A stretch of DNA of 41,226 nucleotides. Origin: Halomonas sp. (lineage in GTDB: Bacteria > Pseudomonadota > Gammaproteobacteria > Pseudomonadales > Halomonadaceae). Positions 24,830-37,182 of the stretch are shown piece by piece. How positions within the stretch are numbered: position 1 is the stretch's first letter; every line of letters starts with the position of its first letter. Location: positions 1-41,226 of the forward strand of contig JAGXGN010000083.1 of the NCBI GenBank assembly GCA_024636705.1, in the 5' to 3' direction. The position numbers were made by a program, and so were the translations under genes. The notes beneath the pieces were generated by a model that did no database searches, was not told the DNA's origin, and worked only from the letters and a program-made list of their open reading frames with translations.

Positions 24830-24990
24830 TGACACTCCCCGCCCTGTCGGGCGAGGGTTCTTGGGTCGCCCCGAGAACCTTCCTGCTTCGATACGCCTTC
24901 ACTAGACCACGGCTAGGCCGCCGTCCCCGCTCCAGTCGCTCCACAGGCTAACCCCGCCAGCCCGGCGGTTCGGATATTCCTGGCGGCATT
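24830..24990 (-). ncRNA. Predicted omegaRNA scaffold (extent approximate)
   Basis: Structured right end directly downstream of and overlapping the tnpB 3' end: ...GGTTCTCGGGGCGACCCAAGAACCCTCGCCCGACAGGGCGGGGAGTGTCA. Confidence 0.5.
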
Positions 24991-26037
24991 GATGTCGCGG
25001 TCGATGGCATGGCCGCAGCCGTCACAGTGCCAGTGGCGCTGTGAGAGAGGCAGCTTATCGACCCGATGGCTGCAGTGATGGCAGGTCTTGCTACTCGGCA
25101 GCCACTGGCTCACTTTGACCAGTTGTCGACCTGCCCAGTCGGCCTTGTACTCAAGCTGGCGCACAAACTCACCCCAGCCTGCATCACTGATGGCCTTGGC
25201 CAGATGCCGGTTCTTCACCATGCCGGTGATGTTGAGCGACTCGACGCAGAGGACTTGGTTTTCGTTGACGAGCGTGCGGGTCGCTTTGTGAATCGCATCG
25301 CGGCGGCAGTCCGCGATCTTGGCATGCAGGCGCGCCACTTGCTGTGTGGCCTTAGCGCGGTTTTTCGAGCCTTTCTGCTTCTTGGCCAGCCGACGCTGAC
25401 GATACACTAGCCTGGCTTCATAACGCTTGAGGTGGCGCGGATTGCCCGACTTTTCGCCGCGGCTAGTGATAAACAGATCGGTCAAACCCAGGTCAATGCC
25501 AACGGTTTTCGGTGAGACCGATAGCGCCTCGGGCGAGAACTCACACAAGCAGCTGATAAAGTAGCGGCCAGCGCGATCTCGTGAAAGCGTGATGCTGGAA
25601 GGCGCACAGGGAAGTGGGCGACTCCAGCGAATCGGTAGGAGTTCGCTGGATTTGGCAATGGTGATCTCGCCATGCCGATAGCGAAAAGCCGCCTTGGTCA
25701 GCCGAATGGACTGCCGGCGGTCCTTGCGCTTGAAGCGCGGATAGCGTGCCTTGAGCTTGGGGTTTAAAAAATTGTCTAAGGCAGCCTTCTGATCCCGAAG
25801 CGTCTGCTGCAGGATGACGCTGGAAACGTCCTTTAGCCATGGATACTCGGCCTTTAATGCCACCAGCCGCCTTTCCGCTGCTGAATGCGATACCGACTCC
25901 TCGCGCTGTTGATATACCTCAGTGCGATAGGCCAGCGTATTGTTCCAGACGAAACGGGCAGAGCCGAACGACTTCGCCAGCAGTACGGCCTGCTCAGGCG
26001 TGGGATAAAGGCGTTCTTTGTAGGCCCGTTTCGTCAT
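24913..26037 (-). CDS. tnpB: RNA-guided endonuclease TnpB
   Basis: 374 aa; RuvC motifs VGIDLGLTDLF, LCVESLNITGMVKN, CDGCGHAIDRDINAARNI; zinc finger CHHCSHRVDKLPLSQRHWHCDGCG. Confidence 0.95.
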   Translation of the reverse strand: MTKRAYKERLYPTPEQAVLLAKSFGSARFVWNNTLAYRTEVYQQREESVSHSAAERRLVALKAEYPWLKDVSSVILQQTLRDQKAALDNFLNPKLKARYPRFKRKDRRQSIRLTKAAFRYRHGEITIAKSSELLPIRWSRPLPCAPSSITLSRDRAGRYFISCLCEFSPEALSVSPKTVGIDLGLTDLFITSRGEKSGNPRHLKRYEARLVYRQRRLAKKQKGSKNRAKATQQVARLHAKIADCRRDAIHKATRTLVNENQVLCVESLNITGMVKNRHLAKAISDAGWGEFVRQLEYKADWAGRQLVKVSQWLPSSKTCHHCSHRVDKLPLSQRHWHCDGCGHAIDRDINAARNIRTAGLAGLACGATGAGTAA

Positions 26038-33663: not shown

Positions 33664-35379
33664 CTACTTCGCAACGGCCAAACTTTCGGTCGTGACATTG
33701 GCCGCCGGGGCCTGGGTGGACAGGTGACGGTTGATGGCACTCATCACCGCCTTCATCGAGGCACTGGTGATGCTCTCGTCGGTACCCACGCCGAACACCG
33801 CCTTGCCGTCGATGCGCACCTCCACATAGGCGATCGCCTCGGCGTCGGCACCCTGGCCACGCGAATGTTCGTGGTAATCGATGATCTCCACCTCCTTGCC
33901 ATCCGAGGCCAGCGCCTTGACGAAGGCCGCCAGGGGACCATTGCCCTCAACCCGGATGGTGCGCCGTTCGCCGTGCTCCTCGAAGGTGGCGTCCACACTG
34001 ACCCTGGGGCTATCCGGCTCGGAAGACAGGCGATGGCCGAGCATGGCGTAGGGCGAACGCTGCTCGAGGTATTCGTCGGCGAAGGCCTGGTAGATCATCT
34101 GCGAGGTGATCTCCTTGCCGGTGCGGTCGGCCACTTCCTGCACAACCTGGCTGAACTCGATGGAGAGGCGACGGGGCAGTTCGATGCCATGCTCCTGCTC
34201 CAGCAGGTAGGAGATCCCCCCCTTGCCCGACTGGCTATTGACCCGGATCACCGCCTCGTAGCTGCGCCCCACGTCTAGGGGATCGATGGGCAGGTAGGGC
34301 ACCGCCCAGCGGGAATCGGGATGGGCACGATGCTCGGCCATGCCCTTCTTGATGGCATCCTGGTGGGAGCCCGAGAAGGCCGTGAACACCAGATCCCCCA
34401 CATAGGGATGGCGAGGGTGCACGGGCAACTGGTTGCAATACTCCACCTCGCGCATGATCGGCGTGATATTGGAGAAATCGAGCCGGGGGTGCACACCCTG
34501 GGTATAGAGATTCATGGCCAGGGTGACGAGATCGACATTACCGGTACGCTCGCCGTTGGCGAAGAGCGTTCCTTCGACTCGATCGGCACCGGCCATCAGG
34601 GTCAGTTCGGCGGCGGCCACCCCGGTGCCGCGGTCGTTATGGGGATGGACGCTGACGATCAGGCTGTCGCGACGCTTGACCTGACGACAGAACCACTCGA
34701 TCTGGTCGGCATAGTTGTTGGGCGTGGCGACTTCCACGGTGGCCGGAAGATTGACGATCATGCGATTGTCGGGCGTGGCGCCATAGGCCTCCATGACCGC
34801 CTCGACGATCTGAAGCGCGAAGTCCATTTCCGTGGTGGTGAACAGCTCAGGGGAGTACTGGAAGGTCCAGTTCGTCGCGGGGGCGGCTTCCATGTGCCGA
34901 CGAATCCGGGTGGTGGCATCCACGGCAATCTGCACGCATTCCGCCTTGTCGACCCTGAACACCACCTCACGGAACATCGGATCGGTGGCGTTGTAGACAT
35001 GCACGATGGCGTTCTTCGCTCCCTCGAGGGCCTCGAAGGTCCGGTCGATCAACTGGGGCCGCGCCTGGGTCAAGACCTGGATGGTGACGTCATCGGGAAT
35101 CCGGTTCTGCTCGATCAAGTCACGCACGAAGTCGAAATCGGTCTGGGAGGCCGAGGGGAAGCCTACCTCGATCTCCTTGAAGCCGATCTTGACCAGCAGG
35201 TCGAAGAAGCGCTGCTTGCGCTCCTGGTTCATGGGATCGATCAACGACTGATTGCCATCACGCAGGTCGACGCTGCACCAGATCGGGGGTGAGTCGATGC
35301 GCTGGTTCGGCCACTGGCGATCCGGAATATCGAAGGCGACGAAGGGGCGGTACTTGGTAGCGGGATTGTCGAGCATCAT
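33664..35379 (-). CDS. leuA: 2-isopropylmalate synthase
   Basis: [50 protein letters not shown]; start trimmed to 35379 from the 35556 ORF start. Confidence 0.96.
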
Positions 35380-35470
35380 GGCGGCGAACTCCTGACTAAA
35401 AGTATTCAGTGTGTATAGGTTTTCAACGTGTTTAGGTTTTCTACGAATAATAGAGGCATTCAAGAACGAG

Positions 35471-35505
35471 GACGCCCCGCATGGTTCTCGACCATACGGG
35501 GCGTC
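35471..35505 (-). terminator. Candidate attenuator hairpin in the leuA leader
   Basis: Minus strand GACGCCCCGTATGGT-CGAGA-ACCATGCGGGGCGTC (15-bp stem, one G-T wobble) followed by CTCGTTCTTG; weak U-tract. Confidence 0.6.
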
Positions 35506-35671
35506 ACTAGGGGAATCTGGCAGGACGAAGGCGCACGACAGTCGTCCGCTCGCCAATGATGGCGGGATCCCATTCGGGTGTTCATGGAGATGACGGCAGT
35601 GGGAATGAACATGGTACGACCTCGTTTCAACCTGGACAGAACAGCGATGCCCAAGGCATCGCCCGGCGCGC

Positions 35672-35722
35672 TCAGGAGCGCGCTAGTAGTCGTAGGTCGA
35701 GGCGGTACGATGTCTGTTTCAT
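35672..35722 (-). CDS. Putative leu leader peptide [16 protein letters not shown]
   Basis: 16 codons; Leu codons CTC, CTA, CTA, CTA with a CTA-CTA pair just before a hairpin containing the TGA stop. Confidence 0.75.
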
Positions 35723-35734
35723 GTGACTAGACAA

Positions 35735-35959
35735 TCAGGCTTCGCCCCTCCTGTCAACCGTCTCTTGCCCTTGACGGGCCTGCATGGTGGCCTCCACACG
35801 CGACAACTGCTCACCGAGGCGACGCACGTCATCGCGCAGGCCATGCAGTTCCGCCGCTTCGCCTTGCCCGCTTTCGAGTTCCATCTGCAGGTTTTCCTTC
35901 TGCATCACGTCGAGCACGATACCGATCATCATGTTGAGGAAGATGAAGGTGGTGCTCAC
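35735..35959 (-). pseudogene. C-terminal fragment of a voltage-gated ion channel (S6 half + charged tail), or a small membrane protein derived from it
   Basis: 74 aa, GTG start: MSTTFIFLNMMIGIVLDVMQKENLQMELESGQGEAAELHGLRDDVRRLGEQLSRVEATMQARQ; pore/voltage-sensor regions absent. Confidence 0.6.
35752..35757 (-). promoter_or_regulatory. Candidate -35 (TTGACA) for the leuA leader transcript
   Basis: Exact TTGACA on the minus strand; poor -10 (TTGTCT at 35729-35734) at 17-bp spacing. Confidence 0.3.
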
Positions 35960-37182
35960 TCCGCCTCCTCCAGATCCACCTGGCGGTAGCCGATCAGGTA
36001 GAGCACGGCATCCAGCCCCAGGGTCGAGATGGACTGCCGCGCCTGGGCACGCACCAAGGGCTTGGCACGAAAGGCGATACCGAGGCCGGCGGCGGCGAGC
36101 ATCCTGAGATCGTTGGCACCATCGCCCACGGCGATGGTCTGCTCCATGGCTAGCCCCTCGCGTTGGGCGATTTCGTGGAGTAGCAGCGCCTTGCGGTCGG
36201 CATCGAGGATCGGCTCGGAGACCTCGCCGGTCACCTTGCCGTTCTCGATCAGCAGTTCATTGGCGTGGACTTCATCGAAGCCGAGCCGCGCCTGTAGGTG
36301 GCGGGCGAAATAGCTGAAGCCCCCGGAGAGGATCACCGTGCGGTAGCCCAGGCGCTTGAGCTGCTTCATCAGCCGCTCGACGCCGTCCATGAGTGGCAGT
36401 TCCGCGGCGATCTCGGCCAGTACCGACTCGTCCAGTCCCTTGAGCTTGGCCATCCGTTCGCGAAAGCTCTGCTGGAAGTCCAGTTCGCCGCGCATGGCGC
36501 GTTCGGTGACCGCCGCGACCTCTTCAAAGACACCGTGGCGTCGCGCCAGCTCGTCGATCACCTCGACCTGGATCAGGGTGGAGTCCATGTCGAAGCACAC
36601 AAGGCGGCGGTGTCGGCGCCAGATGGAGTCTTCCTGGATGGCGATGTCCACGCCGTGCATGGCGCCCAGCGCCAGGGCCTTCTCGCGCAAGGCGTCGAGG
36701 TCGACCTCCTCCCCGCGCAGCCAGCACTCCACGCAGGCACCCTGGATGCTCTGGTGGTCACGGTGGATCCCGCCGTCCAAGGGCTCACGGCCAGAGAGCC
36801 GATGGATCAACTCCACGGTGAGGCCGTGCTCGGCGGTCAGGGCCCCCACCTCGGCGAGGATCCCCGCCGGCAGATGAGGCGCCAGCAGGGTCAGGATCAG
36901 GCGGGGCTGGCCGGCATGAGCGCTCCAGCGCTGGTAGTCGTCGGCGCTGACCTGGATCGTCTGGATATCCAGGCCCAGGTCGTCGCCCGCCGCCACCAGG
37001 GCCGCTTCAAGATCGTTGTCCTGGTTGATCCCCACCAGCGCCTCCAGGGAAAGCCTGTCGAAGGTCACGCTCTGGTTGATATCCAGCAGGCGGGCGCCAC
37101 ACTTCGCCAGTGCCTTGCCCAGACCGGCCAGTTGGCCGGGGCACGCCTTGCCAGTGGCGCGGATCAATACTCGTCGTGTCAT
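35956..37182 (-). CDS. serB: Phosphoserine phosphatase with N-terminal ACT domains
   Basis: 408 aa; LVCFDMDSTLIQVEVIDELARRHG, VILSGGFSYFARHL, VGDGANDLRML. Confidence 0.96.
   Translation of the reverse strand: MTRRVLIRATGKACPGQLAGLGKALAKCGARLLDINQSVTFDRLSLEALVGINQDNDLEAALVAAGDDLGLDIQTIQVSADDYQRWSAHAGQPRLILTLLAPHLPAGILAEVGALTAEHGLTVELIHRLSGREPLDGGIHRDHQSIQGACVECWLRGEEVDLDALREKALALGAMHGVDIAIQEDSIWRRHRRLVCFDMDSTLIQVEVIDELARRHGVFEEVAAVTERAMRGELDFQQSFRERMAKLKGLDESVLAEIAAELPLMDGVERLMKQLKRLGYRTVILSGGFSYFARHLQARLGFDEVHANELLIENGKVTGEVSEPILDADRKALLLHEIAQREGLAMEQTIAVGDGANDLRMLAAAGLGIAFRAKPLVRAQARQSISTLGLDAVLYLIGYRQVDLEEAE

Follow-up and report, generated by a model that had tools for sequence, protein, structure and literature searches.

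A putative serial leucine attenuator with two short open reading frames upstream of leuA in Halomonas

The leader of leuA in Halomonas sp. is very probably a ribosome-mediated leucine attenuator, as judged from a 41,226-nucleotide stretch of contig JAGXGN010000083.1 (the window, in which all leader features given below lie on the minus strand) and from homologous leaders of the Halomonas family. We consider it probable that the leucine signal is relayed through a second short open reading frame, ORF2, and a terminator-like hairpin, hairpin 3, and we lean, with somewhat more caution, towards a serial attenuator in which a ribosome stalled in a leaderless sensor ORF, ORF1, gates a product-less ORF2 whose own ribosome is the antiterminator. 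The relay is based on the observations that all of its parts are conserved, that the helices P1, P2 and P3 covary, that ORF2 is open through the terminator-like hairpin in every leader and that the geometry of the ribosome footprint fits.

ORF1, its promoter and the CTA control codons

ORF1 (35672–35722), a putative leader peptide of 16 codons, is located upstream of leuA (33664–35379, minus strand), the gene for a 571 amino acid 2-isopropylmalate synthase with HMGL-like, IPMS_D2 and LeuA_dimer domains. A sequence-only reading of the window had proposed a leucine-type attenuator at this position, with CTA as a rare and therefore sensitive stall codon. The ORF and its Leu codons, CTC, CTA, CTA and CTA, are present as that reading described, and the rarity of CTA is borne out, this codon accounting for 18 of the 682 Leu codons (2.6%) in 11 long ORFs of the window.

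A DNA query composed of the leader plus the beginning of leuA matched 145 of 151 family genomes, for the most part at leuA itself, and 68 leaders, 48 of which are non-redundant, were extracted from the fetched upstream regions. CTACGACTA is almost unchanged across the 68 leaders, which represent 12 or more genera of the Halomonas family and are related, so that the 48 non-redundant sequences do not amount to 48 independent events. The control-codon core, CTACGACTACTA (CTA CGA CTA CTA, 35684–35695), shows almost no variation within the family. Of the 274 Leu codons in the ORF1s of the 48 leaders, 178 are CTA, as opposed to 2.6% in the window genes, with a mean of 3.7 and a minimum of 2 CTA per leader, and the leader is always found upstream of leuA. 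A short leader ORF rich in codons of the regulated amino acid is therefore present 5′ of its biosynthetic gene, and conservation lends good support to leucine attenuation with CTA as the control codon, the alignment across relatives showing both a conserved CTA core and covariation in hairpins 1 and 2 of the earlier reading. A DNA pattern composed of the promoter, the ATG and the core retrieved 105 stretches from public genomes and, among the 80 matches listed, all but ∼8 belong to Halomonas, Billgrantia, Vreelandella, Onishia, Litchfieldella, Franzmannia or Modicisalibacter. Combined, the 68 homologous leaders, the covarying hairpins and the yield of the pattern search indicate that the region is more than a chance arrangement.

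The promoter, which was absent from the sequence-only reading, consists of a perfect −35 element, TTGACA (35752–35757), which begins exactly 35 nt 5′ of the A in the ORF1 start codon, and an extended −10 element (35729–35737), TG-n-TTGTCT here and TGATTTTCT in most relatives, which was positioned by conservation and ends 6 nt before the ATG. Every leader with the core has TTGACA 35 or 36 nt 5′ of the ORF1 ATG, and the TG-extended −10 element ends ∼6 nt before this ATG across the leaders. As TTGACA is placed 35–36 nt before the ATG, at normal promoter spacing, ORF1 is probably leaderless, with transcription starting at the ATG or within 1–2 nt of it; from the placement of the two elements we infer that +1 falls on the ORF1 ATG. 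When the same promoter-ATG spacing was searched elsewhere in two complete genomes, no further leader-like peptide was found.

A conserved fold around the start of ORF2

Hairpin 1 of the earlier reading (P2 here, 35666–35683), which spans the ORF1 stop codon, and hairpin 2 (P3, 35644–35662) are both recovered in the minimum-energy fold of 35722–35606, a fold with a z of −4.35 whose stability was reached by 0 of 200 shuffled sequences. They are enclosed by a larger conserved stem, P1, which hides the ORF2 start site. The 5′ strand of P1 (35694–35714) lies within the first half of ORF1 and the 3′ strand (35608–35633) covers the Shine-Dalgarno sequence (SD2) and the AUG (AUG2) of ORF2, the CTC Leu codon of ORF1 pairing with the GAG of SD2. 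P1, too, belongs to this minimum-energy fold of 35722–35606, fold modelling having been confined to nested pairs. This pairing, which the sequence-only reading did not contain, is by comparison of the leaders long-range, conserved and covarying.

P2 is paired in 91% of cells, with changes on both sides in 5 of 5 pairs, and P3 in 95%, with such changes in 7 of 7; both helices are well supported on both alignments. Covariation over the whole fold is 0.244, compared with 0.04–0.09 for slid partners, on a MAFFT alignment made without reference to the structure, and reaches 0.306 for P1, P2 and P3, compared with 0.05–0.07, on a model-fitted alignment of 59 distinct rows that is biased towards its own structure and includes ∼6 wrong-strand or poor rows. 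On the latter alignment, double changes occur in 7 of 9 outer and 4 of 7 inner pairs of P1. Plain RNAalifold on the MAFFT alignment recovered P1 in part only, because the strands shift register, and the model-based alignment recovered it better. Native ORF1-SD2 duplexes are stronger than most of those formed after partners were swapped between species or shuffled (on average, fractions of 0.25, 0.22 and 0.13 were as good), and changed SD2 sequences (GAGAAAG, GAGAGA) are often matched by a changed ORF1 strand (TTTCTC, TCTCTC). P1 is weak or unclear in several leaders (L036, L045, L069).

A compact three-helix fold with its basal stem on a Shine-Dalgarno sequence could also be a ligand- or protein-binding element in which ORF1 is not the sensor, a protein-binding role having been proposed for the actinobacterial LEU element (PMC1262725). 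This is highly unlikely, as the Leu codon core is the only strongly conserved unpaired stretch, and the promoter-to-ATG spacing and the reading frame are fixed.

ORF2 (35460–35612, 50 codons), likewise missing from the earlier reading, is preceded by the Shine-Dalgarno sequence GAGG (35620–35623), is open through hairpin 3 and stops 11 nt past it. The ORF2 ATG was taken as the first ATG with a Shine-Dalgarno-like motif, a choice independent of ORF length; selection by the longest ORF was dropped as biased. Such an ATG is present in every one of the 48 leaders, 55–86 nt 3′ of the ORF1 stop, and in all 48 its frame contains no stop before the end of hairpin 3, compared with 19 and 18 of the 48 for the other two frames. 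With one leader per genus, ORF2 is open in 12 of 12 against a background of ∼0.39, which is unlikely by chance. On this comparison, ORF2 is a conserved part of the leader. Its frame crosses hairpin 3 in all three registers (36, 7 and 5 leaders) and pN/pS is ∼0.76, values which suggest that the ORF2 peptide is at most weakly constrained and that translation, rather than its product, seems to be kept. For the same reasons, and with general sequence conservation lacking, it is exceedingly improbable that ORF2 is a conserved small protein whose overlap with the hairpin is incidental, although it would suit this explanation that every leader has such an open frame behind a Shine-Dalgarno-like motif. 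The same layout is found in L082 and L083, two more distant leaders of another genus that are not among the 48: ORF2 has 67 codons there, passes through a strong hairpin followed by a T-rich tail and ends 14 nt short of leuA, and comparison of the two by eye reveals a compensatory change in a stem at SD2.

Hairpin 3 and the proposed relay

Hairpin 3 (35471–35505), a 15-bp GC-rich stem-loop inside ORF2 that resembles an intrinsic terminator, lies where the earlier reading placed it, is the sole terminator-like site detected by the scanner in the region and is found as a long GC stem in 48 of 48 leaders. The caveat of that reading, that the U-tracts are weak, also holds: the tail is CTCGTTCTTG here, the 9 nt after hairpin 3 contain a mean of 4.4 T in the 48 leaders, and the U-tract is poor in many species, this one included, with T5–T6 tails in some lineages. 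P3 was considered as a general terminator and rejected because it has no consistent U-tract, downstream T content varying by species when inspected by eye.

In classical leu-type attenuation, a stall at CTA would block hairpin 1 and free an antiterminator, which would exclude the terminator. Such a mechanism is in keeping with the rare Leu codons of the leader peptide, which adjoin a hairpin, and with the terminator-like hairpin 5′ of leuA, and in the Salmonella leu attenuator control is known to be exerted by CUA codons, the replacement of which by CUG lowered sensitivity (PMC1183508). However, the best upstream complement to the 5′ arm of hairpin 3 was no better than those of shuffled sequences (fraction 0.50), and an antiterminator arm shared with the terminator, as in the three-hairpin leu, his and trp arrangements, was not found. 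P3 does not serve as a general terminator either, and both the open ORF2 and the pairing of P1 with the ORF2 start are left unexplained, so that we regard classical attenuation as unlikely. The interpretation given in the sequence-only reading is thus supported with regard to leucine attenuation and the CTA control codon but not with regard to the three-hairpin logic, as no antiterminator was detected and P1 encloses hairpins 1 and 2.

Translation of ORF2 could also act independently of intrinsic termination, by protecting the transcript from Rho or by coupling into leuA, with hairpin 3 being merely a stabilising or 3′-processing element. The weak U-tracts favour this explanation, as does the ORF2 stop, which lies on the leuA ATG (ATGA) in 19 of the 48 leaders, and in E. 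coli toiL-topAI termination by Rho is relieved when a stall uncovers a ribosome-binding site (PMC12121999). Conversely, hairpin 3 is a long GC stem in every leader, followed by T5–T6 in some lineages, and ORF2 ends before leuA begins in 16 of the 48 leaders and within leuA in 13, which indicates that coupling is not uniform; the ATGA overlap itself arises from an ATGATG start, in one frame of three. We consider a route through Rho or coupling not very likely.

As no antiterminator was found, translation of ORF2 through hairpin 3 is the simplest route from a stall to leuA, and it is this relay that we favour. Transcription would start at or next to the ORF1 AUG, and ribosomes would translate ORF1 from the 5′ end of the transcript. 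With leucine plentiful, the ribosome would reach the ORF1 stop, leaving the first half of ORF1 free to pair as P1 with SD2 and AUG2; ORF2 would then be untranslated, hairpin 3 would form and transcription would end before leuA. When leucine is short, the ribosome would stall at the CTA codons, which are directly 3′ of the P1 strand, and cover this strand, such that P1 would be blocked and the ORF2 start exposed. A second ribosome would then translate through the hairpin 3 sequence, preventing the terminator, and leuA would be transcribed. From the arrangement of the leader we infer where transcription starts, that the ribosome stalls, that transcription terminates at hairpin 3 and in which causal order these steps occur.

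The geometry of the leader is consistent with these steps, as the P1 5′ strand is largely covered when a core CTA codon occupies the ribosomal A site, but not when the ribosome is at the ORF1 stop. In a footprint model of the 48 leaders, in which ribosome-covered positions were forced to be unpaired, the mean unpaired probability of SD2 and AUG2 is 0.12 in the free leader and 0.12 with a ribosome at the stop, and 0.35 and 0.30 with a ribosome at the first and second core CTA, respectively. SD2 and AUG2 are more exposed by the stall than by a ribosome at the stop in 38 of the 48 leaders and less so in 2, the modelled exposure of SD2 upon stalling (0.35) being only partial.

The main physical difficulty, and a real weakness of the relay model, is the race between ribosome and polymerase. 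A translating ribosome does prevent termination in pyrL (PMC5021804), and terminators within the first 100 bp of a coding region are still efficient in E. coli (PMC4824070). As hairpin 3 starts a median of ∼103 nt (68–170) after the ORF2 AUG in the 48 leaders, the ORF2 ribosome may arrive late. Pausing of the polymerase at P2 or P3 could solve the timing.

Known attenuators, distribution and neighbouring features

Amino acid attenuation is usually taught as one peptide with competing hairpins, and pyrL senses UTP through polymerase pausing. To our knowledge, as drawn from open-access papers, no described attenuator joins stall sensing, start exposure and ribosome antitermination in series. The evolutionary record of this leader points to a second round of translation as the antiterminator, an open frame being kept while its peptide is weakly selected. 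If true, the leader would be a clean natural case of selection on translation itself and not on its product, and would join start exposure of the toiL or erm type and ribosome antitermination of the pyrL type in one leader. It would also provide a leucine-sensing regulatory part for Halomonas, a genus used in biotechnology.

The leader resembles the enterobacterial leu attenuator (leuL of Salmonella and E. coli) in its Leu-rich peptide, rare CUA codons and terminator-like hairpin before the structural gene (PMC1183508), and differs from it in the probably leaderless ORF1, the ORF2 that runs through hairpin 3, the stem on the ORF2 start, the lack of a detected antiterminator and the lack of an Rfam match. 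As in the actinobacterial LEU element 5′ of leuA, a basal stem is formed between the stretch of an upstream ORF that holds the leucine codons and a Shine-Dalgarno sequence; in the LEU element, described as a pseudoknot, this stem is at the Shine-Dalgarno box of the translation start (PMC1262725), whereas the Halomonas stem covers the Shine-Dalgarno sequence of the intermediate ORF2, and not that of leuA, ∼230 nt upstream of the leuA start and followed by a terminator-like hairpin. This is a likeness of layout, with no relatedness shown.

The E. coli pyrBI attenuator also depends on a short ORF, pyrL, whose ribosome must translate into the terminator (PMC5021804), although translation of the Halomonas ORF2 would be gated by a ribosome stalled on another ORF. 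Exposure of a downstream ribosome-binding site by a ribosome stalled on an upstream ORF is common to E. coli toiL-topAI (PMC12121999) and erm leaders, where the exposed site is that of the gene itself; in Halomonas it would be that of a short ORF acting on a terminator. Two short ORFs are likewise found in the attenuating leader of Salmonella mgtCBR, where mgtM and mgtP are independent and additive and respond to different signals (PMC3641672), whereas the Halomonas ORFs would act in series. In Sinorhizobium meliloti, the mRNA from which the trpL leader peptide is made is leaderless, AUG being its first codon (PMC10117765); control there is by tryptophan and is not known to involve an ORF2 relay.

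The leader was compared with Rfam 15 in the window and in 32 relatives, and no leader family was matched at the gathering score or at E-values up to 1–10. A 'leuA-Halomonas' RNA motif, as named in the sequence-only reading, may cover part of the RNA fold of this leader; no paper naming a Halomonas leuA RNA motif was found among the open-access papers searched. A covariance model of the fold (R1) gave 4 matches in 296 genomes of the order, all in the leader's own family, in a search whose filters lose weak matches, and a covariance-model search of its own genome detected no second copy of the leader. A sub-threshold match to RsmY (20.9 bits, with a gathering score of 57) near the leuA leader in L062 (164–285, plus strand) is probably due to chance.

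In several family members (L049, L053, L063, L071 and L075–L078) leuA is directly 3′ of a channel-like gene and the leader is absent from the upstream stretch searched. As leuA adjoins this gene with no leader between, part of one genus (g11) seems to have lost or replaced the attenuator; others in the family are also devoid of it. The window carries a 74-codon frame (35735–35959, minus strand) that resembles the C-terminal end of a membrane-channel-like gene (FIFLNMMIGIVLDVMQKE...) and directly follows a SerB-like gene (35956–37182) with ACT and HAD-hydrolase domains. The channel-like gene precedes leuA in relatives, and the remainder of it seems to be missing here, as the result of a deletion or of a join in the assembly. 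At its 3′ end, the 74-codon frame overlaps the leuA promoter. Between hairpin 3 and leuA, an AT-rich stretch (35380–35460, minus strand) that is absent from the nearest relatives could hold a second, leader-independent promoter; a sigma-70 scan of this stretch found none. Elsewhere in the window, an IS605 OrfB/TnpB-type transposase gene with OrfB_IS605 and Cas12f1-like_TNB domains is located at 24913–26037 on the minus strand.
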